This document shows, one piece after another, positions 24,327 through 38,801 of a DNA stretch of 39,783 nucleotides. Both the position numbers and the translations under genes were made by a program. The stretch is from Spirochaetales bacterium. Its GTDB lineage: Bacteria > Spirochaetota > Spirochaetia > Sphaerochaetales > Sphaerochaetaceae. A model generated the notes under the pieces. That model ran no database searches. It was not told the DNA's origin and saw only the letters and a list, made by a program, of their open reading frames with translations. The number at the start of each line of letters is the position of its first letter. Position 1 is the stretch's first letter. Where the stretch lies: contig DUOJ01000025.1 of NCBI GenBank assembly GCA_012838895.1, forward strand, positions 1 to 39,783. Reading direction: 5' to 3'.

Positions 24327-25262
24327 ATGAAAAAAACTTTAGTAGTTTTACTGATTTTAGTTGTGTCTCTCGGCGCAGTTTTTGCCCAAGGGCGTTCAGA
24401 AGCTAAGAGCGGTTATACTTTCGGCTACACCTGTATGACGATGAATAACCCCTTCTTTATCATCCTCGAGAAATCAATCCGTGACTCAGTAGAAGCCAAT
24501 GGCGATAAGCTGATTACAATGGATCCGGCAATGGATGTTGCCAAGCAGATTAACCAAATCGAAGACCTGATTACCCAGGGAATCGACGCCATCTTCCTCA
24601 ACCCAGTTGACTGGGAAGGGATTAGACCTGCTCTGGTAGCCCTCAAAAATGCCAATATTCCTATCATCAACTTCGACACCGAAGTTAAAGATATGGAGTA
24701 TGTTACCGCTTATGCCGGTTCTGACAACAAGAACGCCGGTTACGTTTGTGGGTTAGACCTCGTAAGCCGCTTCCCCAATGGTGGAAGAATTGTCGTTCTC
24801 GACTCTCCTCTGATGAACTCAGTTAACGACCGTATTGAGGGATTCATGCGGGCCATTGATGGGAAAGGATTCACCATCCTCGCTCAACAAGATGCAAAAG
24901 GGGACCTCCCAACCGCTATGAGAATTACCGAAGATATCTTACAAGCTCACCCCCAAATTGATGCAATCATGGGTGGAAATGATCCCACAGCATTGGGAGC
25001 ATTAGCTGCTTGTAAAGCTGCCAACCGTACTAACGTCTTAATCTACGGTGTTGACGGTTCACCCGAAGCCAAAGCTGAAATTGCCAGTGGCTCTCAGTTT
25101 GTTGGTTCCGGTGCCCAGAGCCCCATCAGCATTGGTGTTGAGTCAGTTAAACTGGCTTATAAAGTGCTCAATAACGAGCCTTATGAAGAGAGAATTCCTG
25201 TACAAACTTTCTTAATCAACGGCGACAACGTTAACGAGTACGGCACAGATGGCTGGCAATAA
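24327..25262 (+). CDS. Ribose-type periplasmic sugar-binding protein (second system)
   Basis: A 311-residue RbsB-like protein. The signal peptide (MKKTLVVLL core, cleavage after A-V-F-A) lacks a lipobox; the mature end begins Q-G-R-S-E-A-K-S. Ligand-fold strands include NPFFIILEKSIRD, DAIFLNPVDWEG, INFDTEV and MGGNDPTALGALA, with YGVDGSPEAK. ATG 24327 follows GGAGGA. It is the first gene of a binding protein, ATPase and permease operon, with a terminator-like hairpin after its stop that should keep it more abundant than the membrane parts. Confidence 0.93.
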   Translation: MKKTLVVLLILVVSLGAVFAQGRSEAKSGYTFGYTCMTMNNPFFIILEKSIRDSVEANGDKLITMDPAMDVAKQINQIEDLITQGIDAIFLNPVDWEGIRPALVALKNANIPIINFDTEVKDMEYVTAYAGSDNKNAGYVCGLDLVSRFPNGGRIVVLDSPLMNSVNDRIEGFMRAIDGKGFTILAQQDAKGDLPTAMRITEDILQAHPQIDAIMGGNDPTALGALAACKAANRTNVLIYGVDGSPEAKAEIASGSQFVGSGAQSPISIGVESVKLAYKVLNNEPYEERIPVQTFLINGDNVNEYGTDGWQ

Positions 25263-25285
25263 TAGAAAACTCTGTTAAAATTAGG

Positions 25286-25309
25286 GGGCCGATTGCTATC
25301 GGCCCTTTT
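25286..25309 (+). terminator. Hairpin with T-run between binding protein and ATPase genes
   Basis: Stem GGGCCGAT with ATCGGCCC, TGCT loop, then TTTT. It should act as a partial terminator (attenuator) because the operon continues with the ATPase and permease. Confidence 0.75.
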
Positions 25310-25335
25310 GCTAAACTTGTTGGAGGAGCGCCTCT

Positions 25336-26838
25336 GTGAGCGAAAATATTTTATTAAAGATGAACCACATCCGCAAAGAGTTCCCCGGTGTTTTGGCCTT
25401 GAAGGATGTCTCTTTTGAGCTGAAAGCCGGAGAGGTACATGCTCTATTGGGTGAAAATGGGGCAGGAAAATCGACCCTGATTAAAATATTAGGGGGAATC
25501 TACTCCAGTGATGCGGGAGAGATTGTGATTAACGGTCAAGTGGCTACTATTGACAAGGTTCAAGATGCCCAGACCCATGGAATCAGTGTGATTCACCAAG
25601 AATTGGTACTGGTTCCCCATATGACGGTTGCAGAAAATATCTACTTGGGCAGAGAACCGACTAAAAGAGGGAGCCGTTTTGTGGACTTCAAGAAGATGAA
25701 CCGCGATGCCAAAGAGATTCTCGATCCGTTTAATCTCGATTTCAAACCCACCGATTTAGTTAGTAATCTCACTATTGCGCAGCAACAGATGGTGGAAATT
25801 ATTAAAGCCCTCTCTTTTAATGCCCGTATATTGGTGATGGATGAACCCACCTCTTCTTTATCGGAAAAGGATGTTGATTTCCTCTTCGACAATATACGCA
25901 AACTTAAAAAGGCCAATGTTGGAATTATCTATATCTCTCACCGGATGAGCGAGCTGATGCAAATAGCCGACCGAATTACAGTAATTCGTGACGGAGAATA
26001 TATTGGAACACGTAGCTCCAATGAGACAAACAACGATGAGTTAATTGCAATGATGGTTGGACGCCAGCTTACCAACTATTATACACGCACCTTTGGTAAC
26101 CCTCAGGAGAAAGTATTAGAGGTGAAAAATCTCAACGCGGGCTCCTTCTTGAAAGATATTTCATTCCACCTCAACAGTGGTGAAATTCTCGGTTTTGCCG
26201 GGTTAGTGGGGGCCGGAAGAAGTGAGTTAATGAAGTGTATCTTTGGAATAGATCCAATCACCAGTGGTGAAATTTATGTAGAAAACGAGATGGTCACCAT
26301 AAAGAACCCCTTAGAGGCGACAAAATTGGGCATCGCCTTAGTTCCCGAGAGTCGAAAAAGTGAAGCTCTCTTTCCAGAGCAGAGTGTGCAATATAATATC
26401 ACCATCAAGTCACTTGATGAATTTATTAAGGGGATTAGAGTTAATCACTCCAAAGAGGGGGCCATCACCCGTGAGTATGTGGAGAAGATGGATGTGCGCA
26501 CCCCTAGTTTCAACCAATTGGTGGGCAAACTCTCGGGAGGAAACCAACAAAAAGTTGTTGTCGGGCGCTGGCTAGCTACTAAGCCCAAAATTTTAATTTT
26601 TGACGAACCCACCCGTGGTGTTGATGTTGGCGCTAAAGCTGAAATCTACTCAATCATGAATGATTTAGTTAAAGAGGGGGTCGCCATAATCATGATCTCT
26701 TCGGAGTTACCCGAGGTGATTAATATGAGTGACCGAGTGGTTGTGATGAGTAATGGGAGAATCACTGGATGCTTGCCTCGTGAAGATCTGACGCAAGAGA
26801 AGATAATGCACTATGCAACACAATTTGTATTTACCTAA
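25336..26838 (+). CDS. Ribose-type sugar ABC transporter ATPase (second system)
   Basis: A 500-residue double ATPase. First half: Walker A GENGAGKST, signature region N-L-T-I-A-Q-Q-Q-M-V-E-I, Walker B ILVMDEPTSSL. Second half: degenerate GLVGAGRSE, LSGGNQQKVVVGRW and I-L-I-F-D-E-P-T-R-G-V-D. Translation starts at a GTG with GGAGG upstream; the site can pair weakly with CCTC just before the start. It energises the permease that follows 26 bases later. Confidence 0.94.
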   Translation: MSENILLKMNHIRKEFPGVLALKDVSFELKAGEVHALLGENGAGKSTLIKILGGIYSSDAGEIVINGQVATIDKVQDAQTHGISVIHQELVLVPHMTVAENIYLGREPTKRGSRFVDFKKMNRDAKEILDPFNLDFKPTDLVSNLTIAQQQMVEIIKALSFNARILVMDEPTSSLSEKDVDFLFDNIRKLKKANVGIIYISHRMSELMQIADRITVIRDGEYIGTRSSNETNNDELIAMMVGRQLTNYYTRTFGNPQEKVLEVKNLNAGSFLKDISFHLNSGEILGFAGLVGAGRSELMKCIFGIDPITSGEIYVENEMVTIKNPLEATKLGIALVPESRKSEALFPEQSVQYNITIKSLDEFIKGIRVNHSKEGAITREYVEKMDVRTPSFNQLVGKLSGGNQQKVVVGRWLATKPKILIFDEPTRGVDVGAKAEIYSIMNDLVKEGVAIIMISSELPEVINMSDRVVVMSNGRITGCLPREDLTQEKIMHYATQFVFT

Positions 26839-26864
26839 GAAAATGGACAGAGGAGTAATAGACG

Positions 26865-27869
26865 ATGAATGTAGCCAAAAGTAAAACTGAGAAATCGAAG
26901 GTAGTCACCTTCTTAACCCACAATCCACTCTTCAATTTTGGGAAAGAAAACTTGGGTATCCTGATAGGACTTCTGCTCTTATCGTTAATCTTAACGATTT
27001 TCTCACCCGTATTTCTCTCCAAACACAATATCTTGAATGTGTTGCGCCAAGTAGCCACCAACCTCTACATTGCCTGTGCAATGACAATGGTGATTATCTT
27101 GGGAGGAATTGACCTCTCGGTGGGTTCAACTATTGCCATGTCGGGAGTTGTCACCGGAGGCTTGATTGCCTTTGATGGCCAATCAATTGTTGTGGCTGTA
27201 CTGGCAGGCCTTTTTGTAGGATTAGTGGTGGGTGCTTTCAACGGATTTTTAATATCAAGGACCACTATCCCCCCTTTCATAGTGACCCTCTCAACGATGA
27301 ATATTATGCGAGGAGCTAGTTACGTCTACACGGGGGGACAACCCATTAGAGTTATGAGCGATTCGTTCAACTTTATTGGAGCTGGTTACGTGAGAGGCAT
27401 CCCTGTACCGATTATCTACCTGGTGATTATTGTGATTATATCAGTCCTCATAATGTCTAAGTCAAAGCTGGGGCGTCACATCTACGCTGTAGGCGGTAAC
27501 CCGGTAGCGGCTCGCTTCTCGGGTATTAAAAACAACCGAGTCCTTTTCTTCGCCTATCTCTTCTCAGGGCTCATGGCAGCAGTTGCCGGAATCGTCTTAG
27601 CTTCGCGGATGTTCAGTGGTCAGCCCACTGCCGGACAGGGAGCTGAGATGGATGCCATCGCTGCTGTTGTTCTGGGGGGAACCAGCATGAGTGGCGGTGT
27701 AGGAAAGATTGGGGGGACCGTCATTGGGGCTCTGATTATTGGAATCCTTAGTAATGGCCTTAACCTTCTGGGTATAAGCTCCTTCTGGCAATACATTGTA
27801 AAGGGAATTGTTATCTTAATAGCTGTCTATGTCGACTTCCTAAAGAAGCGAAAAGAGGGGACAAATTAA
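26865..27869 (+). CDS. Ribose-type sugar ABC transporter permease (second system)
   Basis: A 334-residue permease of the RbsC family. After a charged cytoplasmic start of about 35 residues it has repeated hydrophobic segments and the family motifs TMVIILGGIDLSVGS, GAFNGFLI, YAVGGNPVAARFSGI and A-A-V-V-L-G-G-T-S-M-S-G-G. GAGGAG lies nine bases before ATG 26865. It is the last gene of the operon and is followed by a good terminator. Confidence 0.93.
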   Translation: MNVAKSKTEKSKVVTFLTHNPLFNFGKENLGILIGLLLLSLILTIFSPVFLSKHNILNVLRQVATNLYIACAMTMVIILGGIDLSVGSTIAMSGVVTGGLIAFDGQSIVVAVLAGLFVGLVVGAFNGFLISRTTIPPFIVTLSTMNIMRGASYVYTGGQPIRVMSDSFNFIGAGYVRGIPVPIIYLVIIVIISVLIMSKSKLGRHIYAVGGNPVAARFSGIKNNRVLFFAYLFSGLMAAVAGIVLASRMFSGQPTAGQGAEMDAIAAVVLGGTSMSGGVGKIGGTVIGALIIGILSNGLNLLGISSFWQYIVKGIVILIAVYVDFLKKRKEGTN

Positions 27870-27874
27870 GCTAA

Positions 27875-27901
27875 GGGCTCCGAACGGAGCCCTTTTCTTT
27901 T
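27875..27901 (+). terminator. Rho-independent terminator of the second ABC operon
   Basis: Stem GGGCTCCG/CGGAGCCC followed by TTTTCTTTT. It overlaps the end of the converging FGGY kinase gene by two bases. Confidence 0.85.
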
Positions 27902-29399
27902 AAAGTAAAATCTTCTCCACCACCTCTTGGTAGCGCTTTTGGAGCTTAGCGTAAGTTTCAGAGTATTTAGGATTGGCGACAAAGTCTTTCTCTGCCCCCT
28001 TAAAAGCCGCTACCCCCTGCTCAACGCTATCGTAGATTCCTATGGCCAATCCGGCGGCTATAGCAGCACCAGCTGTCCCCGACTCGCGGTAGCGAGCCCT
28101 TTTAACAGGACGCCCCAACATATCGGCTTTAATCTGGAGCCAGAGGTCGGAGCGACTCCCCCCTCCGGTGGCTAAGATATCGTTAATTACAATTCCGCGC
28201 TCCTCGAGCTTCTCAAACGCCTCGAGGAAAAACATCGTCTCCCCCTCTAGGAGGGCCCGGTAGAGCTCTCCCCTTCCCGTTGTAGCATCCATTCCTAAGA
28301 AGAGGCCATTGCCCCCTGGGAGGAAAAGAGGTGCCCCTGAGGGTTCCACAAAGGGGAAGAAAAGAAGATTACTGGGGGCTGATGGAGCTTCAGCTGTAAG
28401 GAGTGCTAGAATCTCCCTCTCACTCAGCCCCTGTTTTTGGAGATCGCTAGTAAAAGCCTTCATAAACCAAGTTTGTAGTGCGCCAGCTTGGTTGTGGATA
28501 AAGGCGACATATTTACCGGGCACCACGTGGTGCTCTACCCCCAAGTTTAGATTCAACATCATCTTGGGGTCGGGAATTGAGTCGAAAATAACAGTAGTAC
28601 ACTCTACTGTGCCAATACCGGTTACCGAGTCACCCCCTTTAACCGCTCCAGCTCCCAGGGCGTTGATACACTGGTCGTGTCCCCCCACGATAATCTTAAC
28701 ATCGCGGTTGAGACCCAGTTTAGTGGCCATTTCGGGCAAAATAGTCCCCATGAGGGTCCCTGGAGGGATAGTATCGGCTAGAATGCGCCCATCGAGCCCT
28801 CCGATTGCGAGGAGCTCGTCAGACCACTTCTCATTCCATAAATCGAAAAGGAGGGTTCTATTGGCGTGGCAGTAGTTGGTAGCAGCAACCCCTGAGAGGC
28901 GATAGACCAAGAAGTCGGCCCACGAGAGGACCTTCCAGATCTTACTATGGAGCTCACTCTGGTTCTCCTGGTACCACACCAACTTAGGGTAGGTGTAGGA
29001 GTAGCCTAAAATATTGCCGTTTATCCGGTAGAAGGCCTCATGCCCCATCGCCTCAAAACGACTGATGGCATCTTTACGTCGCTCATCGTGGCTAAAGATT
29101 GAGGGGCCCAAGATGTTCCCATTTTTATCGAGGGGGACCATCGCCTCACCAAATGAACCCACCGAGATTGCCTCTACTGGGTCCGAGCGGTATTTGCCCT
29201 CCCAAAGGGAGGTGTCCCCCGCCTCTTTAATCGTTTTATAGAGGGCCCGCTCCACCTCAAAGCAGTCGAGTTCAAAGACTCCGGCTTCCCCCCTAAGGAC
29301 TTCATAGGAGGCTTCTGAGGAGGTGATGAGGGCACCATCGGCGTTGTAGACGGAAACTTTACACCCCGAAGAACCAATATCGAGACCCATTAAACTCAT
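27900..29399 (-). CDS. FGGY-family sugar kinase (xylulokinase-like)
   Basis: A 499-residue FGGY kinase. N-terminal phosphate loop G-L-D-I-G-S-S-G-C-K-V; sugar-side segments VGSFGEAMVPLD and P-S-I-F-S-H-D-E-R-R; GGHDQCINALGAG; and the ATP-site signature ATGGGSRSDLWLQIKADMLGRPV with G-T-A-G-A-A-I-A-A-G. It is last in the right-hand operon and should phosphorylate the ketose made by the isomerase-family enzyme at the operon's head, possibly at carbon 1 if the adjacent class II aldolase cleaves the product. A xylulokinase or fuculokinase-type activity are both possible. Confidence 0.88.
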   Translation of the reverse strand: MSLMGLDIGSSGCKVSVYNADGALITSSEASYEVLRGEAGVFELDCFEVERALYKTIKEAGDTSLWEGKYRSDPVEAISVGSFGEAMVPLDKNGNILGPSIFSHDERRKDAISRFEAMGHEAFYRINGNILGYSYTYPKLVWYQENQSELHSKIWKVLSWADFLVYRLSGVAATNYCHANRTLLFDLWNEKWSDELLAIGGLDGRILADTIPPGTLMGTILPEMATKLGLNRDVKIIVGGHDQCINALGAGAVKGGDSVTGIGTVECTTVIFDSIPDPKMMLNLNLGVEHHVVPGKYVAFIHNQAGALQTWFMKAFTSDLQKQGLSEREILALLTAEAPSAPSNLLFFPFVEPSGAPLFLPGGNGLFLGMDATTGRGELYRALLEGETMFFLEAFEKLEERGIVINDILATGGGSRSDLWLQIKADMLGRPVKRARYRESGTAGAAIAAGLAIGIYDSVEQGVAAFKGAEKDFVANPKYSETYAKLQKRYQEVVEKILL

Positions 29400-30322: not shown

Positions 30323-31342
30323 CTAACACTTTTTTTGAATATATTTTTCGTCACGATTGACGAGAAAAGTCTCTAAAACAACAATGTGGGGGGAGTTTTG
30401 GTGATTTTTGATTTGTTCAAACAACATATCGACAATTGCCTGGGCCTCCCTCTCTTTACTAATTCCGACACTCGAGAGGGGCATTGGGAAGTTAAGATCA
30501 CTTAAAACATCGTCAACGCCCACAATGGGGACCTCTAAGGCGACCATCGAAATTGTATCGATGGCAGCTAAAGCGATAAAGTCGGAGAAGGCGAAGATTG
30601 CATCAAACTCCCCTTGGCGGTCTAAAATAGTTGAGATGTGATTACTATCTGCCCTTGGAGTAATCTCAGCCTCCACCACTAAGTTGGCGTCAAAAGGAAT
30701 CCCATACTCCCTTAAACACTTCTTATAACCTGTTAAACGGTCGTTGGAGGAGGAGATATGGGGGGGACCATTGAGGTAGAGAATCCGTTTTCTCCCCTTC
30801 ATTACTAAGTGCTGGGTAGCTAAAAACCCCGCCCTTACATCGTCCCATAAGACGGTGTAGAAGAGACGCCCAGCAAAGCGCCGCCCCATTATTACATAGG
30901 GGATTCCGTTAGAGATCATCAGATCAAAGATATCGGTCTTTTTTTGGGTGGGGCAAATAATAATACCATCAACCTTACGGCTAATGGCGGTACGCACCGC
31001 TTCAAACTCGATATCACAATTTTCATCGGTGTTCATTATGAAGGAGTTGTACCCATTTTTACGAAGCACCCTATCCATCTCCCTCACTTTTGAGGCGAAG
31101 AAGGGGTTGGCTATATCGGGGATAATAATTGCTAAGGTGTGGGTAACCCCCGAGCGCATCGAAGCGGCCAGCATGTTGGTAAGGTACCCCATCTCAACCG
31201 CTTTTTTACGTATAATCTTCTTGGTCTCTTCGGAGATATCGTCCATATCTTTAAGAGCATGACTCACAGTGTTGACCGTAAAGCCGGTAGCCTGAGCAAT
31301 ATCCTTCATCGTTACACGCCTGGGCCTCTTAATTATTGACAC
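30323..31342 (-). CDS. LacI-family transcriptional regulator (second)
   Basis: A 339-residue repressor with helix-turn-helix TMKDIAQATGFTVNTVSHALK and hinge MLAASMRSG, then the effector domain. The recognition helix T-V-N-T-V-S-H differs from the usual S-x-x-T-V-S-R, so its operator should differ from the AATCGATT sites of the other operon. Translation starts at a GTG behind GAGGAG. It lies inside the catabolic operon between the glycyl radical enzyme and the aldolase, so it is expected to control that operon. Confidence 0.88.
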   Translation of the reverse strand: MSIIKRPRRVTMKDIAQATGFTVNTVSHALKDMDDISEETKKIIRKKAVEMGYLTNMLAASMRSGVTHTLAIIIPDIANPFFASKVREMDRVLRKNGYNSFIMNTDENCDIEFEAVRTAISRKVDGIIICPTQKKTDIFDLMISNGIPYVIMGRRFAGRLFYTVLWDDVRAGFLATQHLVMKGRKRILYLNGPPHISSSNDRLTGYKKCLREYGIPFDANLVVEAEITPRADSNHISTILDRQGEFDAIFAFSDFIALAAIDTISMVALEVPIVGVDDVLSDLNFPMPLSSVGISKEREAQAIVDMLFEQIKNHQNSPHIVVLETFLVNRDEKYIQKKC

Positions 31343-31383: not shown

Positions 31384-33447
31384 CTAGAAATCGAGTTCAC
31401 TCCTCCTAATTATGTGGTCTTGGTAAGCTTTATCGAGCTCAACGAAGTAACCACTCCACCCCCACACCCTTACAATCAGGTTGCGGTACTTGTCGGGGTG
31501 CTTCTGGGCATCCAACATCATCTCTCGATTGACCCCGTTGAGTTGCATCTGCATCCCCCCTAGGTCCATGTAGCTCTTCACCAAGCGCGCCACCTTAGCC
31601 GTGCTCTCAGCGTTCCTAAACATCGAATCGTCAAGTTCGATTGTGAGGGGGCCACCGTTGGCGACTCGCTCCAAGTTTCCTTTGCTAAACGATTTGATGA
31701 GAGAGATGGGCCCTTTGAGGTGAGTATGAAGGGATGGGGAGAAGTTACAAGCAAACTCTTCCCCCTGGTGACGCCCGTCAGGCGAGGCTCCCAACTCATT
31801 ACCGTGCCACAGGTAGTACATAGCTGAACCGGTCCCCGCTCTAAAGATCCCCCCGCGGTCGTTAGATACCCCTTCAAGGGAGTCGGCAAACCAATCGAGG
31901 AGCTCGCCAGCTAAGGCGTCGACATAATCATCATCATTACCCATTTTAGGGGCTTCAAAACGCAAGAGGTGGTAGAGTTCGTCATACCCCACAAAGTCGG
32001 CTTCAAGGGCCTTGAGGAGGGTCTCTTTATCAACCCGCTGCTCCTCAAAAACATACTTTTTAATGGCTGCTAGCGAGTCGGTAGCACTCGAGAGGCCGGT
32101 GCCATGAATTCCGTAGTTGTTGTAGCGCGCACCTAGGCTAATATCTTGCCCCTTGGCGATACACCCCTCCATCATGAGCGACATAAGGGGAGTTGGCTCC
32201 ATATAGACGCCGTTGGTGTTGGAACAAATCTCGGCGGTTTGACGGCAGAGTTTACTTTTTACAACCTCTTTAAATTTATCAAAAGTTTCACACTCAGTGA
32301 GGCAGGGGAGAGCCTCTAAGACAGCCTTCAAAAAGGAGAGAGCATCGATATTTACAATATCCATCGCCACTTCAGGGATAATAAACTCCCAACAAGCCGC
32401 CACAACGTAGTTTAAAGCATCCTCTTCACGGTAGCCCCACTTCTTAAGGGCGTTTACAACCACTTCGTCATTGGAGTATTGGGGGAAGCCAAGCCCCTGC
32501 TTGGTCATCTCAGAACCCAACTCCAACACTTCGATGGGGGTGCCAGCGTGAACTCGAAGGTTAATCTTAGGGTCAATCAGTTTGAGTTCAAGGGAGGCCT
32601 CCATACAGAGTTTTGAGAGGTCGTTGAAAGCATCTTCACCGCTAGTAGTAAGTCCCCCTAACATGAGGGACTGGCCGTTATCACCCTGCTGCATCCCCGG
32701 GTAGAGGTCGCTATCTTTGTTGAACGAGATGAAGAACTCTTGGAGAAGCTCAAGGGCACTCTCTCTGGTGAGCACCCCTTTAGCTAAGTCCGCCTCATAG
32801 TAGGGGAACATAAATTGGTCAAAGCGCCCAATTGTGTTGTGGTAGTTGAAACTGGCCCACAGCCCAAAGTGAATGAGGCGGAAGAATTGGAGAGCTTGAA
32901 CAAAGTTTTGGGGTCGGTTTTGGGGAATTTGGGCAAAGCTCTCCGCCACAGTGGTATTACCCACCTCAATGGCTGCCAAACGGTAGCGTTCAGCAAACGC
33001 CTCCATAATATCAAGGGTCTCAAGGAGTATATTGAGGTAGGCAATCTTCTCAGCGTCTCTGTGGGTTTTTAGAGACTCTTCAATCTCAAGGCGAACTTGG
33101 TTAAATCCCTTATCGATTAAGGAGGAGTAGCTGGGGCAGATGTTACTAACTTTACCCTGCTCATGAATCCTATAGGATCGCTTTATAACCGACCACTCCC
33201 GCTCTGTGTAGATTTCGGGAATCGTAGGAACCGTCCTTAGAAGGGCAATCTTCTCGTTGGGGAAAACAACAACCTTCTCCTTCTCCAAAACCCATTTAAG
33301 GCGTTCTACTGCCCGCTCTGTGTCGCTTAATTCCCGCTTCTCAAACTCTTTGGCTAAAGAGTGGGGGTTAACTGAACTTTGCCGGTAGGTGTGGTGTTCC
33401 TTATTCTCAACATAAAATTGTCTCAATTTAGCGATATAACTGGTCAT
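31384..33447 (-). CDS. Glycyl radical enzyme of unknown substrate (PFL-like fold)
   Basis: A 687-residue member of the pyruvate formate-lyase superfamily, about 100-150 shorter than the well-known eliminases. Landmarks: I-G-R-F-D-Q-F-M-F-P at 207-216, the active-site cysteine Cys352 in A-A-C-W-E-F with Glu354 two residues on, G-A-S-P-D-G-R-H-Q-G-E near 553-563, GGMQMQLN at 630-637, and the C-terminal glycyl loop R-V-W-G-W-S with Gly663. The C-x-E pair resembles that of dehydratase-type enzymes rather than the C-C of pyruvate formate-lyase. The loop W-G-W-S replaces the usual x-G-Y-S. Its activase lies immediately upstream. In this sugar operon it may dehydrate a diol or sugar derivative; substrate unknown. 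Confidence 0.88.
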   Translation of the reverse strand: MTSYIAKLRQFYVENKEHHTYRQSSVNPHSLAKEFEKRELSDTERAVERLKWVLEKEKVVVFPNEKIALLRTVPTIPEIYTEREWSVIKRSYRIHEQGKVSNICPSYSSLIDKGFNQVRLEIEESLKTHRDAEKIAYLNILLETLDIMEAFAERYRLAAIEVGNTTVAESFAQIPQNRPQNFVQALQFFRLIHFGLWASFNYHNTIGRFDQFMFPYYEADLAKGVLTRESALELLQEFFISFNKDSDLYPGMQQGDNGQSLMLGGLTTSGEDAFNDLSKLCMEASLELKLIDPKINLRVHAGTPIEVLELGSEMTKQGLGFPQYSNDEVVVNALKKWGYREEDALNYVVAACWEFIIPEVAMDIVNIDALSFLKAVLEALPCLTECETFDKFKEVVKSKLCRQTAEICSNTNGVYMEPTPLMSLMMEGCIAKGQDISLGARYNNYGIHGTGLSSATDSLAAIKKYVFEEQRVDKETLLKALEADFVGYDELYHLLRFEAPKMGNDDDYVDALAGELLDWFADSLEGVSNDRGGIFRAGTGSAMYYLWHGNELGASPDGRHQGEEFACNFSPSLHTHLKGPISLIKSFSKGNLERVANGGPLTIELDDSMFRNAESTAKVARLVKSYMDLGGMQMQLNGVNREMMLDAQKHPDKYRNLIVRVWGWSGYFVELDKAYQDHIIRRSELDF

Positions 33448-33456
33448 ACTCTCCCC

Positions 33457-34311
33457 TTACAATATGGAGGCCTCAATCCCCCGCTTGGTAAATTCTTCTA
33501 AGTTAAAATAGGGCTTGGCATCTTCATCGAAGTCCACCAGATAATGGCGCCCTACCATCCCATATTTCGCCCCTGCTGTCCTCTGGTAGGGGAGCAGTTC
33601 AACCTTCTCCAAGTTTAAGCTCCCCTCGAGCAGCTTAGCTGTCTCACGGTAGTTCTCGTCGTTGTCGTTAACCCCGGGAATAACCGGAATACGGATAACA
33701 AACGGCTTACCGCTACCCTTGAGGTACTTTAGGTTCTCTAAAATGGGGCGGTTATCTTCCCCACAATAGTAGCGATGTTTCTCACTATCGACCATCTTAA
33801 GGTCCATCAAAACATAATCGAGGTGCTCAACAACCTCTTTAAACTTCGCTTTAGAGGCAAATCCCGACGTCTCAACGGCACAGTGGAGCCCCTCAAGGTG
33901 TTTTATCGTCGCCAGGAGGAAACTGCTCTGAAGCAGAGGCTCTCCTCCCGAAAAAGTGACCCCGCCCCCATTTTTCTCTAAGATGGGGCGATGTTTCAAT
34001 AAAAAGGTGGCTAACTCTTGGGGGGTGTAGCTCTCCCCCACCAAACGTCTCAAATTTAGGGGACAGACACTAATACACTCCCCACGAGTAGTGCAGAGGG
34101 AGTGTACTGCCCCCGTGGGGCAAGCGGCGACACAAGCGCCACACTTGATACACTGGGCGTATTTCACCATCAATTCAACTTTAGGTGAAATCCCCTCAGG
34201 ATTGTGGCACCACTGACACCGCAAAGGACACCCCTTGAGGAAGACGGTGGTGCGAATCCCCGGACCATCGAAGATGGCCATCTCCTTGATATCAAAAACA
34301 AGGCCCGTCAT
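33457..34311 (-). CDS. Glycyl radical enzyme activating protein (radical SAM)
   Basis: A 284-residue activase that should abstract hydrogen from Gly663 of the downstream enzyme. The radical SAM motif is C-P-L-R-C-Q-W-C (Cys28, 32, 35) followed by HNPEG; G-G-V-T-F-S-G-G-E-P binds SAM. A ferredoxin-like insert near 50-85 has a full first cluster motif (Cys54, 57, 60, 64) but the second, C-T-T-R-G-E-C-I-S-V-C-P (Cys73, 79, 83), has Arg76 where a cysteine normally sits. It starts two bases after the ABC ATPase gene and ends nine bases before the enzyme gene, confirming co-expression. Confidence 0.93.
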   Translation of the reverse strand: MTGLVFDIKEMAIFDGPGIRTTVFLKGCPLRCQWCHNPEGISPKVELMVKYAQCIKCGACVAACPTGAVHSLCTTRGECISVCPLNLRRLVGESYTPQELATFLLKHRPILEKNGGGVTFSGGEPLLQSSFLLATIKHLEGLHCAVETSGFASKAKFKEVVEHLDYVLMDLKMVDSEKHRYYCGEDNRPILENLKYLKGSGKPFVIRIPVIPGVNDNDENYRETAKLLEGSLNLEKVELLPYQRTAGAKYGMVGRHYLVDFDEDAKPYFNLEEFTKRGIEASIL

Positions 34312-34313
34312 AA

Positions 34314-35825
34314 CTAGAGGGTGTGAGAGAGGATCTTCTCTTGGATGAACTCCCTCTTGTCGGTCAGTTCAGCCGCGATTGCCCCCCGCTTCATCACATA
34401 GATACGATCACTCATCCCAATAATTTCGGGGAGTTCTGAACTTATCATAAGAATTGCTACCCCTTGCGAGGCGAGCTGGTCGATAATCTTATAGATCTCA
34501 CTCTTGGCATTGACATCGATACCCCTAGTTGGCTCATCTAAAATGAGGAGCTTAGGATTGGTGAGAAGCCACTTGGCTACGACCACTTTCTGTTGGTTAC
34601 CCCCACTTAAAGTATTACAGATTTGCTCAACTGAGTTGGCAACAATGTTAAGTTTATCGATACTCTCTTGGGCTACCACCTCTTCCCTCTTAAAGTCAAT
34701 CTTAGTTTTGGGATACATCCGCTTAAGGGAGGCCATGGTGATATTGTCTTTGAGAGACATATCTAACACTAGCCCTTCAAGCTTACGATCTTCAGAGAGG
34801 TAGATAACCCCCTTCTCAATCAGATTGCTGGGGTGGAGCCCCCCTATCTCTTCTCCCATATAGAGGATCTCCCCTCCATAGTAGGTGCGACTCCCAAAGA
34901 TCGATTTACCCAGTTCGGTACGCCCGGCACCAACGAGGCCACTGAGACCTACCACTTCACCACTACGTACATAGAGGTTGATGGGCTCGGTATTGCGCGA
35001 GATGCGGAGCCCTTTCACCTCAAGGACCACCTCATCTTGAACTTGGTGGCTACTTTGGAACATTGCCCCAAGCTTACGCCCCACCATCATACTTATAATC
35101 TTGTCGTAATCAAAATCTTCAATGTCAACGGTGCCAATATAGCGCCCATCACGCAAGACGGTGATACGGTCTCCAATCTCCTTCAGCTCTTCAAAGCGGT
35201 GGGAGATATAGATGATACTGATTCCATTGCGCCTTAGGTCGTGGATGATGGCAAAGAGTTTATCAATCTCACTCTTAGTTAAACTGGCTGTGGGCTCATC
35301 CATAATAATAATTCTACAGTCGTAGGAGAGGACTTTAACAATCTCAACTATCTGTTGTTGAGCCGTTGAGAGGTCTCGCACCATAGTTTTGGGGTCGATA
35401 TCGAAGCCGAGGCGTAACAACATCTCACGCGCCTCTGTGTACATCGAAGCTTTATCGATGAAGAGCTTTTTTTGACGCTCGCGTCCCAAAAAGATATTTT
35501 GGGCAACATCTAGGTTTAAGCAGAGGTTGAGCTCTTGGTGGATAAACCCAATCCCGTGGGCTAGCGACTCGCGGGGCCCTGCGAAGGTGATTACCTCTCC
35601 GTCGAGGAGCATCTCCCCCTCATCTGCCGGGATAATCCCCCCAATGATTTTCATCAGTGTCGATTTCCCTGCCCCATTTTCCCCCACCAAGACGTGCACT
35701 TCAGCCTCTTTGACATCGAAGTGGACATCTTCGAGAATCTTAACAGTAGTACCGCGGAGGGGCTGACCATGCTCATCAAAGATAAATTTAGTAATCGCAT
35801 TCATCTCAAGGATTGTTTTCTTCAT
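34314..35825 (-). CDS. Ribose-type sugar ABC transporter ATPase (third system)
   Basis: A 503-residue double ATPase. First half: Walker A GENGAGKST, signature region D-L-S-T-A-Q-Q-Q-I-V-E-I, Walker B RIIIMDEPTASL. Second half: GLVGAGRTE, LSGGNQQKVVVAKW and LLILDEPTRGID. It sits between the permeases and the glycyl radical activase gene, tying transport to the catabolic enzymes. An insertion of about 10 residues near the start (EHGQPLRGTTVKILEDV) is longer than in the other two ATPases here. Confidence 0.93.
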   Translation of the reverse strand: MKKTILEMNAITKFIFDEHGQPLRGTTVKILEDVHFDVKEAEVHVLVGENGAGKSTLMKIIGGIIPADEGEMLLDGEVITFAGPRESLAHGIGFIHQELNLCLNLDVAQNIFLGRERQKKLFIDKASMYTEAREMLLRLGFDIDPKTMVRDLSTAQQQIVEIVKVLSYDCRIIIMDEPTASLTKSEIDKLFAIIHDLRRNGISIIYISHRFEELKEIGDRITVLRDGRYIGTVDIEDFDYDKIISMMVGRKLGAMFQSSHQVQDEVVLEVKGLRISRNTEPINLYVRSGEVVGLSGLVGAGRTELGKSIFGSRTYYGGEILYMGEEIGGLHPSNLIEKGVIYLSEDRKLEGLVLDMSLKDNITMASLKRMYPKTKIDFKREEVVAQESIDKLNIVANSVEQICNTLSGGNQQKVVVAKWLLTNPKLLILDEPTRGIDVNAKSEIYKIIDQLASQGVAILMISSELPEIIGMSDRIYVMKRGAIAAELTDKREFIQEKILSHTL

Positions 35826-35835
35826 CTCATCCCCC

Positions 35836-36801
35836 CTACAGTCGCCTATTTTTAACGTTTTCGAAGATGATGGCGAGTAAAATAACGATCCCCTGGAACG
35901 CCTGGTAGGTGTAGTAGGAGACGTTTAAGAGGTTGATACAGTTCTCTAGCACCTTAATGGTTAAGACACCAAAGACACTCCCAATAACCGTACCAATCCC
36001 CCCAAAGAGGCTCGCCCCACCAATAATGGCTCCGGTTATCACCTCGAAGGTGTAGACTCCGCCCCCCATGGTGGGTTGGGCGCAGTTGACCCGAATAGTG
36101 AGTAAAATAGCGGCAATAGCAACTAAGAAGGAGCAGATCATGTAGACTGAAATATTGAGTCGCTCGGTCTTAATACCACTCATCCTCGCCGCCTTAGCGT
36201 TGAAACCAAAAGCTGAGAGCGAACGCCCAAAGGTGCTGTGGTGGAGGAGGTAGTACATCACTACGCAAATAATGAGGGAGATTAAAACCGTCGTATTGAG
36301 TCCGAAGATGTTGGTCACCCCAATTGCCCTAAAGTTGGCGGGAAGGCGGTTGATATCGCTACCGCTACTCACAATTTGGGCAATTCCGAAGATGATATAA
36401 CCAGTCCCTAAAGTGACAATAAAGGCGGGAACTTTAACCACCTGCACCAATATCCCATTGATAAATCCCACTAAAAGCCCCACCAAGAGGGTTATGAAAA
36501 TTGAGAGCCAAATCGGTAGTCCAACCCCCTTTACAAGGAGCCCCACAGTAATTGAGCAGAGCCCTAAGGTGTAGCCTAAAGAGAGGTCAATACCGCCTGT
36601 CATCAAGACAAGGGTGATTCCCAAACAGGCAATAATTGGGATTGCAGCTTGCTTTATAATTGTGAGAAAGTTGTTAAGTGCAAAAAAGTTCTTTACAAAA
36701 ATCGAGGCTATAATAGCGAGTATCAGGAAGATAACGACACTCCCGTTTCTCTTAACAAATCGCCTCACCTTTTCTGAAAATAGTAGTTGAGTAGTGCTCA
36801 T
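35836..36801 (-). CDS. Ribose-type sugar ABC permease (third system, second subunit)
   Basis: A 321-residue RbsC-family permease with repeated hydrophobic segments and the motif LVLMTGGIDLSLG, G-F-I-N-G-I-L-V, AFGFNAKAARMSGI and G-A-I-I-G-G-A-S-L-F-G-G. It differs clearly from the neighbouring permease at 36811, from which it is nine bases away, so the pair probably forms a heterodimer. Together with the ATPase and binding protein it makes the third importer. Confidence 0.92.
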   Translation of the reverse strand: MSTTQLLFSEKVRRFVKRNGSVVIFLILAIIASIFVKNFFALNNFLTIIKQAAIPIIACLGITLVLMTGGIDLSLGYTLGLCSITVGLLVKGVGLPIWLSIFITLLVGLLVGFINGILVQVVKVPAFIVTLGTGYIIFGIAQIVSSGSDINRLPANFRAIGVTNIFGLNTTVLISLIICVVMYYLLHHSTFGRSLSAFGFNAKAARMSGIKTERLNISVYMICSFLVAIAAILLTIRVNCAQPTMGGGVYTFEVITGAIIGGASLFGGIGTVIGSVFGVLTIKVLENCINLLNVSYYTYQAFQGIVILLAIIFENVKNRRL

Positions 36802-36810
36802 CCCTAACCC

Positions 36811-37767
36811 CTAAAATATTTTGCTATGCTCAATAGTTCGCCGTTTTTGGTGAATATTGAGGGCTACAATGACGATAATAATAATTCCGACAAAGATGTT
36901 TTGGTAAAATGGGTGAATCCCCAACAAGTTGAGGGCGTTGCGCTGTACCCCAATAATCAAAGCTCCTATCAGTGCGAAATAGACCTTCCCCTCGCCTCCC
37001 AACATACTTACCCCCCCAATTACACACGCAGCAATAGCGTCCAATTGGTAGGGTTCCCCTTGGGTTGGGTGGACAGTGTCGAGTTGCCCCGAGAGGAGGA
37101 TTCCAGCCATAGCGATACAAAACCCACTAAAGCCGTAGACAAAGAAGTTGATAGTCGCCGTGCTAATCCCCTGCTGCTTGACAACTGTCTCGTTTCCTCC
37201 CATGGCGTAGATATAGACTCCGAGGCGGGTCTTTGACATCAAGATTGAGGTGACCACCACAAAGAGAATCATTATATAGTTGCTCACCGGAACTCCTAAG
37301 ATTGTACCATTCCCCATAAAGACGTAGGGAGCTGGAAAACCTCCAATCGATTTACCGGCATTTAAGAGGAGGGCCAATCCCCCTCCCACGTTTCCCACAA
37401 CTAGCGTTGTTATAAAAGCTGGGATTCCCAATTTCTCCACCATTAAACCGTTAAAGAGCCCCATTAAGGTTCCCACCGCGAGACCCGCCAGCATGGCTAG
37501 AGGAATTGGCCACCCCTTTAGGAGGAGCAGACCGTTAACCATGGCACAAAAACTGAGAACACCAGTTACCGAGAGGTCGATCCCCTTGATGATTATCACC
37601 ATTGTCATCCCACACGCAACAATGGCAATAATTGAGCTTTGACGCACAATATTGAGCAGATTTTTAATCGATAAGAATCCAGGGATTAAAGAGCCCAATA
37701 TGATAAAGAGAGCGACAACTATTGCAATAATTAGTAGATTCTTTTTGCTAATTTTAAGACCTTTCAT
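36811..37767 (-). CDS. Ribose-type sugar ABC permease (third system, first subunit)
   Basis: A 318-residue RbsC-family permease beginning MKGLKISKKNLL, with GMTMVIIIKGIDLSVTG, G-L-F-N-G-L-M-V, YAMGGNETVVKQQGI and A-A-C-V-I-G-G-V-S-M-L-G-G. The Lys in I-I-I-K-G-I-D-L-S is unusual where most have T/L-G-G-I-D. I favour ATG 37767 over the longer frame from GTG 37818, because the added residues read through an intercistronic hairpin; GGAG lies about ten bases upstream. Confidence 0.88.
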   Translation of the reverse strand: MKGLKISKKNLLIIAIVVALFIILGSLIPGFLSIKNLLNIVRQSSIIAIVACGMTMVIIIKGIDLSVTGVLSFCAMVNGLLLLKGWPIPLAMLAGLAVGTLMGLFNGLMVEKLGIPAFITTLVVGNVGGGLALLLNAGKSIGGFPAPYVFMGNGTILGVPVSNYIMILFVVVTSILMSKTRLGVYIYAMGGNETVVKQQGISTATINFFVYGFSGFCIAMAGILLSGQLDTVHPTQGEPYQLDAIAACVIGGVSMLGGEGKVYFALIGALIIGVQRNALNLLGIHPFYQNIFVGIIIIVIVALNIHQKRRTIEHSKIF

Positions 37768-37787
37768 TGGCTTCCCACTCCAGTTAT

Positions 37788-37809
37788 AGTGGGGGCAAAC
37801 GCCCCCACT
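37788..37809 (-). terminator. Intercistronic hairpin after the third binding-protein gene
   Basis: Perfect nine-base-pair stem (AGTGGGGGC/GCCCCCACT) with a four-base loop, no T-run. It likely stabilises the upstream binding-protein message or limits read-through to the permeases. Confidence 0.65.
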
Positions 37810-37824
37810 TAGTGACAAGATTCT

Positions 37825-38751
37825 CTATAAAGAGGTAGCTGTGATACAAGTTGTTCCGCTATCGATATACTTGGGAACATCACTCATGTTGTCGCCATTA
37901 ATGGCGCGCATGAGCAGCTCAATTGCTTTGGTTCCCATTACGTCGGGGAATTGGGCCATTGAACCATAAACTTCACCATCTTTAATCATCTCTTTAACGT
38001 CATCCGATCCGTCAACTGAGAGAATTTTAACAGATGTCTTACCAGCGTTGTCAAGAGCAGTTAGAATACCGTTCAACATAACGTCACTGGCAGTGAAGAG
38101 TCCTTGGATGTTGCTATTGGCTTGGAGCATATTCTCGGTTACCTGCATAGCGACGTCGTTAGCCCAGTTACCCGGTTGCTCACCAACTACTTTAATAGCG
38201 GTCCCGGCAATACCAGCTTTGAAACCGTCGACACGTTGGTCACCAGCTGAGCTACCATTAGCTCCACGGACGATTAAGACGTTCCCTTTGCCGCCCAATA
38301 CTTCAGCAAGGGTCTCCCCTGCCACAAAACCGGCGTTAAAGTTGTCAGTTCCAATGTAGCTGAGGTAGAGGTCTTCGTTCCCATCTTCAATAGTTTGGTC
38401 AACTAAGACAACAGGAATACCAGCCTCTTTGGCTTTCTTTAAGACAGGGATGACAGCCTTTGAGTCCATTGGGGAGAGGACGATACCGTCGACCCCTTTG
38501 GCGATTAGGTCTTCAACCTGGCTAACTTGAGTAGAAACAGCGGTCTGTTGGCCAGCGGTGACCAAGGTAAATTTAGCACCAGCAGCTTTAGCAGCAGCTT
38601 CTACAGAATCGGCGATGGCTTTTTGGAAAGCATCGTTGGTGATTGTCTTTAAGCTAAAGGCAATCTCGGGTCCTTTTGACTCAGCTTTACCAGCGGCAAA
38701 GAGGCCAAAACTGACAACCAGAACTAACATGGCTACGATGATTTTTTTCAT
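37825..38751 (-). CDS. Ribose-type periplasmic sugar-binding protein (third system)
   Basis: A 308-residue RbsB-like protein. Signal peptide MKKIIVAMLVLVVS with cleavage after G-L-F-A, no lipobox; mature start A-G-K-A-E-S-K-G. Typical strands include DGIVLSPMDSKAVIPVLKKA, VVLVDQTI and F-T-A-S-D-V-M-L-N-G. ATG 38751 is chosen because GGAGGAGAAAAG precedes it; the extra 14 codons to 38793 lack support. It follows the isomerase-family gene and precedes two permeases. Confidence 0.93.
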   Translation of the reverse strand: MKKIIVAMLVLVVSFGLFAAGKAESKGPEIAFSLKTITNDAFQKAIADSVEAAAKAAGAKFTLVTAGQQTAVSTQVSQVEDLIAKGVDGIVLSPMDSKAVIPVLKKAKEAGIPVVLVDQTIEDGNEDLYLSYIGTDNFNAGFVAGETLAEVLGGKGNVLIVRGANGSSAGDQRVDGFKAGIAGTAIKVVGEQPGNWANDVAMQVTENMLQANSNIQGLFTASDVMLNGILTALDNAGKTSVKILSVDGSDDVKEMIKDGEVYGSMAQFPDVMGTKAIELLMRAINGDNMSDVPKYIDSGTTCITATSL

Positions 38752-38789
38752 CTTTTCTCCTCCTCCCCGTTCATTGGGGTTCGTTTTAT

Positions 38790-38801
38790 CCACAAATGTG
38801 G
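38790..38801. promoter_or_regulatory. Possible operator in the leader of the third binding-protein gene
   Basis: Inverted repeat CCACA-AA-TGTGG about 40 bases before ATG 38751. A -10-like TATAGT reads on the minus strand at 38819-38824, so the repeat would lie in the early leader, suited to a repressor such as the LacI protein at 30323-31342. Confidence 0.4.

Follow-up and report, generated by a model that had tools for sequence, protein, structure and literature searches.

The window, as we call the whole stretch of 39,783 nucleotides analysed here, which is an entire contig, encodes a glycyl radical enzyme (GRE) of 687 aa that, judged by its sequence, lies outside every characterised GRE family tested. 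There is in our view about an even chance that this protein works as a glycyl radical eliminase on an unphosphorylated pentose-type sugar or polyol, belonging to an uncharacterised subfamily that serves monosaccharide catabolism. This reading builds on the radical residues, the intact fold, the cognate activase and the one-direction sugar-uptake operon that the sequence displays.

The GRE gene occupies positions 31384-33447, stop codon included. An earlier note on this DNA gave these coordinates exactly and left the strand unstated: the plus strand is stop-rich across 31384-33447, and the GRE frame is on the minus strand. Its translation contains VVAACWEF, with C352 and E354, and LIVRVWGWSGYF, with G663. 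The length of 687 aa, the AACWEF loop (Cys352, Glu354) and the RVWGWS loop are all as the note described, and the Cys and Gly loops can be written C352-W353-E354 and W662-G663-W664. The protein had also been called unusually short, and this is real. Counted from the preceding stop, the open frame has only 690 codons, with about 3 codons 5' of the ATG, so that an N-terminal extension is impossible; the same frame and the high model confidence through the N-terminus rule out a truncation or a wrong start. The median length in the subfamily is about 690 aa, compared with 776-849 aa in the nearest solved dehydratase-type GREs. Membership of the superfamily is indicated by the RVxG C-terminal glycyl loop, the catalytic Cys loop, an activase nearby and both Pfam domains, PFL-like (336 bits) and Gly_radical (71 bits), each above its cut-off. 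It is the sole GRE found in the source genome (a draft of 1.73 Mb, 85% complete).

We scanned species-representative genomes with an alignment of relatives from the same bacterial family and confirmed 366 related loci, of which the best 80 were kept; 78 of their sequences were usable for motif counts. C352, W353, E354, W662, G663 and W664 are present in 78/78 aligned members, and this invariance excludes a chance origin of the altered motifs. None of the radical residues varies, and 74 of the best 80 of the 366 loci have an activase next to or close by the GRE, which rules out an inactive pseudo-enzyme. All seven reference GREs have Ala where the subfamily has Trp at residue 662, and those references where position 353 is resolved have Val instead of Trp. 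The W-G-W-S loop, proposed earlier as a mark of the group, is real and its W-G-W part invariant, but W-S alone is not diagnostic: the glycyl loop of Archaeoglobus 2f3o reads RVAGWS, so the Tyr-to-Trp change is not unique to the subfamily. As read from the alignment, the diagnostic changes are the Trp before the radical Gly (W662) and the Trp inside CxE (W353).

By its motif the GRE is assigned to the eliminase class, since it keeps CxE and its Cys352 is single, with no adjacent cysteines. The suggestion that its active-site residues are of the dehydratase type rather than the PFL type holds in this sense, although CxE is not proof of a dehydratase because arylacetate decarboxylases retain it too. 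CxE is the signature defining GRE eliminases, with the Glu acting as base (PMC7077986). That the protein could be a pyruvate formate-lyase (PFL) or another C-C lyase is barely credible. It shares the Pfam family with these enzymes, but it lacks the adjacent cysteines and scores 74 bits on the PFL model TIGR01255 against a cut-off of 994; the true PFLs of the same bacterial family are other proteins, bearing CC and RVSGY.

The other curated models are also far from a match. The best GRE equivalog, TIGR01774, gives 370 bits against a cut-off of 678, with lower scores for HypD (NF043068, 318 against 1100), the CutC choline TMA-lyase (TIGR04394, 285 against 1050), the (2S)-3-sulfopropanediol dehydratases (NF048009 and NF048011, 287 and 255 against 1000) and the arylacetate decarboxylases HPAD and IAD (NF033715 and NF033718, 198 against 1150 and 217 against 1100). 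There is no curated annotation for the subfamily beyond the superfamily level. The nearest solved GREs are 25-35% identical to the protein, and in genomes of the same family six relatives at 50-69% identity are followed by a fall to 32-35%. A tree that includes seven reference GREs places the subfamily in a single clade (SH-aLRT 100), whose stem measures 3.0 changes per site. A second tree, with 15 other GREs and two further proteins of the same bacterial family from a PFL search, recovers the clade with 100/100 support. The "distinct subgroup" anticipated by the earlier note is supported by this clade and by the scores far below every curated GRE equivalog cut-off; we looked for a placement in a characterised cluster and found none.

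None of the 45 other GRE/PFL proteins in this bacterial family showed RVWGW; motifs could be located in 27 of the 45, and the rest were split, cut or atypical proteins. This family also holds other GRE groups. At L107, L109-L117 and L120, a CC-bearing pyruvate formate-lyase (about 690 aa) lacks the glycyl radical domain, and a separate adjoining ORF of about 80-90 aa carries HPEKYPQLTVRVSGYAVNF; we found no description of this split PFL in the literature searched. A group of about 740 aa (L136-L142) has RVTGFTA(F/Y) and GC(N/H)WM, with no Glu at the CxE position, and another (L144, L146, L148, L150) has LGCGE and the glycyl loop R(V/I)GG(F/L)SAR. Each of these two groups forms its own clade with 100/100 support.

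The best 80 of the 366 loci are from Spirochaetota, Bacillota, Bacteroidota and one Verrucomicrobiota, and the closest relatives are labelled Spirochaetia/Spirochaetales. The gene is present in only 7 of 139 genomes of the same bacterial family and was sporadic in a wider sampling of Bacteroidia (1/345). This patchiness within the family, together with the scattering of the spirochaete sequences over several separate places in the first tree, suggests that the gene moved horizontally. Viral contigs gave no match to the subfamily, and the plasmid collection held no close relatives, only matches of roughly 30-35% to known GREs. A literature search for GREs with links to sugars or arabinose returned no description of the subfamily, which may be the same as a cluster left unnamed in earlier GRE networks.

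The AlphaFold model, built from 67 relatives, has a pLDDT of 93.1, a pTM of 0.92 and no stretch below 50. In the PDB it most resembles glycerol dehydratase, HypD, CutC and propanediol dehydratase (TM 0.86-0.89). The pocket residues of the Clostridium butyricum glycerol dehydratase are His164, His281, Ser282 and Asp447. They align respectively with N102 (78/78), which by equivalence also falls on HypD H160, with H203 (78/78), with N204 (77/78), which also falls on HypD D278, and with N366 (78/78). The three Asn take positions that hold essential acid/base groups in HypD and glycerol dehydratase. From the pocket typical of glycerol and 1,2-propanediol dehydratases only H281 is kept, as H203; among the references, a His here is otherwise found only in these two enzymes. 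N257, in the invariant loop MQQGDNGQ, would match HypD D339, a less certain correspondence because of loop gaps, as it comes only from extending the alignment without gaps from the Gly-Gly that follows. Four HypD variants, H160Q, D278N, D339N and E436Q, have no activity (PMC7077986). Going by the aligned residues, the subfamily bears amides where an amide kills its relative HypD, yet it keeps the Cys, the Glu and one His. Since Asn replaces HypD H160 in the subfamily and the H160Q change abolishes HypD activity, the proton relay would have to differ from that of known dehydratases.

The surrounding genes point to sugar uptake. The operon lies on the minus strand, with intergenic gaps of -7 to 79 bp, and reads from 5' to 3': an L-fucose-isomerase-like protein (PF02952, 38873-39772), an RbsB-type periplasmic sugar-binding protein (37825-38793), two copies of an RbsC-type sugar permease (the second copy at 36811-37818, the other, which clusters with RbsC proteins, at 35836-36801), an RbsA-type sugar ABC ATPase (34314-35825), a radical-SAM GRE activating enzyme of 284 aa (33457-34311), the GRE, a LacI-family regulator (30323-31342), a class II ketose-phosphate aldolase (PF01116, 29409-30329) and a XylB-like FGGY carbohydrate kinase (27900-29399). 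The activase, with CxxxCxxC at C28/C32/C35 and a ferredoxin-like insert, scores 280 bits on TIGR02494 (cut-off 174); it is 9 bp upstream of the GRE, where the ribosome-binding-like AAGGGGAGAG is found. The isomerase-like protein has lost its N-terminus at the contig end (full-length homologues have about 466 aa), and its family has no solved structure detectable by sequence. Of the curated models, sulfoquinovose isomerase fits this protein best, at a score far below the cut-off, and the aldolase and the kinase are likewise below every equivalog cut-off. With all three far below every curated equivalog, the annotation does not give the sugar. A second RbsB-RbsA-RbsC set (24327-27869, plus strand) converges on the operon from the opposite side.

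This operon could also be read as a pathway that ends in a small-diol dehydratase: the isomerase, the FGGY kinase and the class II aldolase would yield DHAP and a short aldehyde, and the diol obtained by reduction (ethylene glycol, propanediol or glycerol) would be the substrate. We find this unlikely. The three genes do accompany the GRE in the window and at L018, L029, L050 and L067, H203 is the His common to glycerol and propanediol dehydratases, and the closest solved structure is a glycerol dehydratase. Against this, three of the aligned glycerol dehydratase positions are Asn, the substrate loop is unlike that of all diol dehydratases compared, and neither a PduP-type aldehyde dehydrogenase nor any microcompartment gene or protein was recognised among the neighbours examined. 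The cassette is moreover missing from most loci, including the arabinofuranosidase loci of Bacteroidota.

Across the best 80 of the 366 loci, with the family names of neighbours checked on representatives using Pfam/NCBIfam, sugar transporters are found at 60 (30 RbsA-type and 19 sugar-porter MFS), L-arabinofuranosidases (GH51 or GH127) at 20 across three phyla, FGGY kinases at 15, the mutarotase GalM at 13, isomerase-like proteins of two types together at 11, and class II aldolases at 8. GH51 occurs in 15 loci, whereas its density across 17 genomes (56 copies in about 72 Mb) would predict about 1 in the roughly 1.3 Mb of loci, although several Bacteroidota loci are close kin and hence not independent. 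It recurs in Bacillota (Eisenbergiella, Hungatella), and GH127 is found in Bacillota and Spirochaetota. GH127 enzymes can act on arabinosylated hydroxyproline, and HypD is a near structural neighbour, both of which would suit a hydroxyproline-type dehydratase working on residues released from arabinosylated proteins of the plant cell wall. Such a role is very improbable: the positions of HypD H160 and D278 are Asn, the transport genes are of the sugar type, and no proline-pathway gene was recognised nearby.

Among the sugar GREs of the same fold family are PflD and YbiW, which act on anhydromannitol-6-phosphate and anhydroglucitol-6-phosphate. A lyase of this kind, opening an anhydro-sugar or a glycosidic/ether C-O bond with no loss of water, would be in keeping with Q323, common to PflD and 8id0. 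We consider it quite unlikely, as neither sequence nor tree groups the GRE with PflD. Transport is via ABC or MFS systems, with no phosphorylating PTS, which also makes a 6-phosphate substrate less likely.

Under the eliminase reading that we favour, pentoses, above all L-arabinose, are the leading candidate substrates across the subfamily. For the window organism L-arabinose is no conclusion, because its genome encodes a canonical AraA but lacks GH51, and substrates may differ between clades, since the clade contexts do. AraA is absent in 9 of 14 GRE-bearing genomes of Bacteroidota/Verrucomicrobiota, including Parabacteroides chinchillae. A general replacement of L-arabinose isomerase by the GRE is ruled out by the presence of AraA in the Bacillota tested and in the window genome. 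DeoC occurs in three Lachnospiraceae loci, and smaller numbers of loci have polyol or sugar (sorbitol-type) dehydrogenases, an aldo-keto reductase or an SMP-30 lactonase; these neighbours would fit either a 2-deoxysugar or a lactone as product. At L033, two activases and a second protein of 793 aa, GRE-like by eye, adjoin the subfamily member, and this locus also holds an FGGY kinase and a PfkB kinase.

The proposed reaction would begin with the radical-SAM activase generating a radical on Gly663, which would hand it to Cys352. The Cys352 thiyl radical would abstract hydrogen from a hydroxylated carbon of the unphosphorylated sugar or polyol, with Asn102, His203, Asn204, Asn366 and the invariant loop MQQGDNGQ keeping the substrate in place. 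Deprotonation of the hydroxyl on that carbon by Glu354 would yield a ketyl radical; the adjacent hydroxyl would depart, most likely with a proton supplied through His203. This would leave a deoxy carbonyl compound as product, either a 2-deoxyaldose or a deoxyaldonolactone, depending on whether an alditol or a hemiacetal is used. A more specific version, which we hold to be possible if rather doubtful, is a radical entry to pentose catabolism by direct dehydration of the free pentose (e.g., the L-arabinose hemiacetal) or of the alditol. Dehydration would then precede any isomerisation or phosphorylation, and the Asn-rich pocket would stand in for the usual His/Asp acid-base set. To our knowledge, no GRE has been described as using a free reducing sugar.

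GREs drive consequential anaerobic chemistry in the gut, acting on choline, hydroxyproline and taurine and producing skatole. The present subfamily is spread over bacteria of the gut, rumen, termite gut and digesters, is found in sugar operons, and has an active site that is strikingly different yet invariant. If it handles pentoses or polyols by radical chemistry, current metabolic models lack one route by which dietary fibre is broken down. The subfamily also raises the question of how a GRE functions with natural amides at positions essential in HypD.

Among known systems, the B12-independent glycerol dehydratase of Clostridium butyricum (1r8w) resembles the GRE in fold (TM 0.89), in CxE, in the His at H281 and in its activase-dependent glycyl radical. 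It shares 26% identity with the GRE over the structural alignment, exceeds it by about 100 residues, carries RVAGYS and CVE, and has H164, S282 and D447 in place of N102, N204 and N366. HypD shares the fold (TM 0.86), CxE and the Arg at its R536, whereas its essential H160 and D278 are Asn in the GRE (as is D339, by ungapped extension only) and its gene context is different. The anhydro-sugar-phosphate enzymes PflD and YbiW (8yjo, 8id0, 8id7) have the fold, CxE and a sugar-related chemistry in common with the GRE, and PflD and 8id0 also Q323; they form a separate clade, PflD has no His at 203, and the GRE is set in a context of unphosphorylated-sugar transport. The Archaeoglobus fulgidus PFL2 (2f3o), of length 776, has the RVxGWS loop with its Trp after the Gly, but differs in the Ala before the Gly, in CVE and in having no His at 203.
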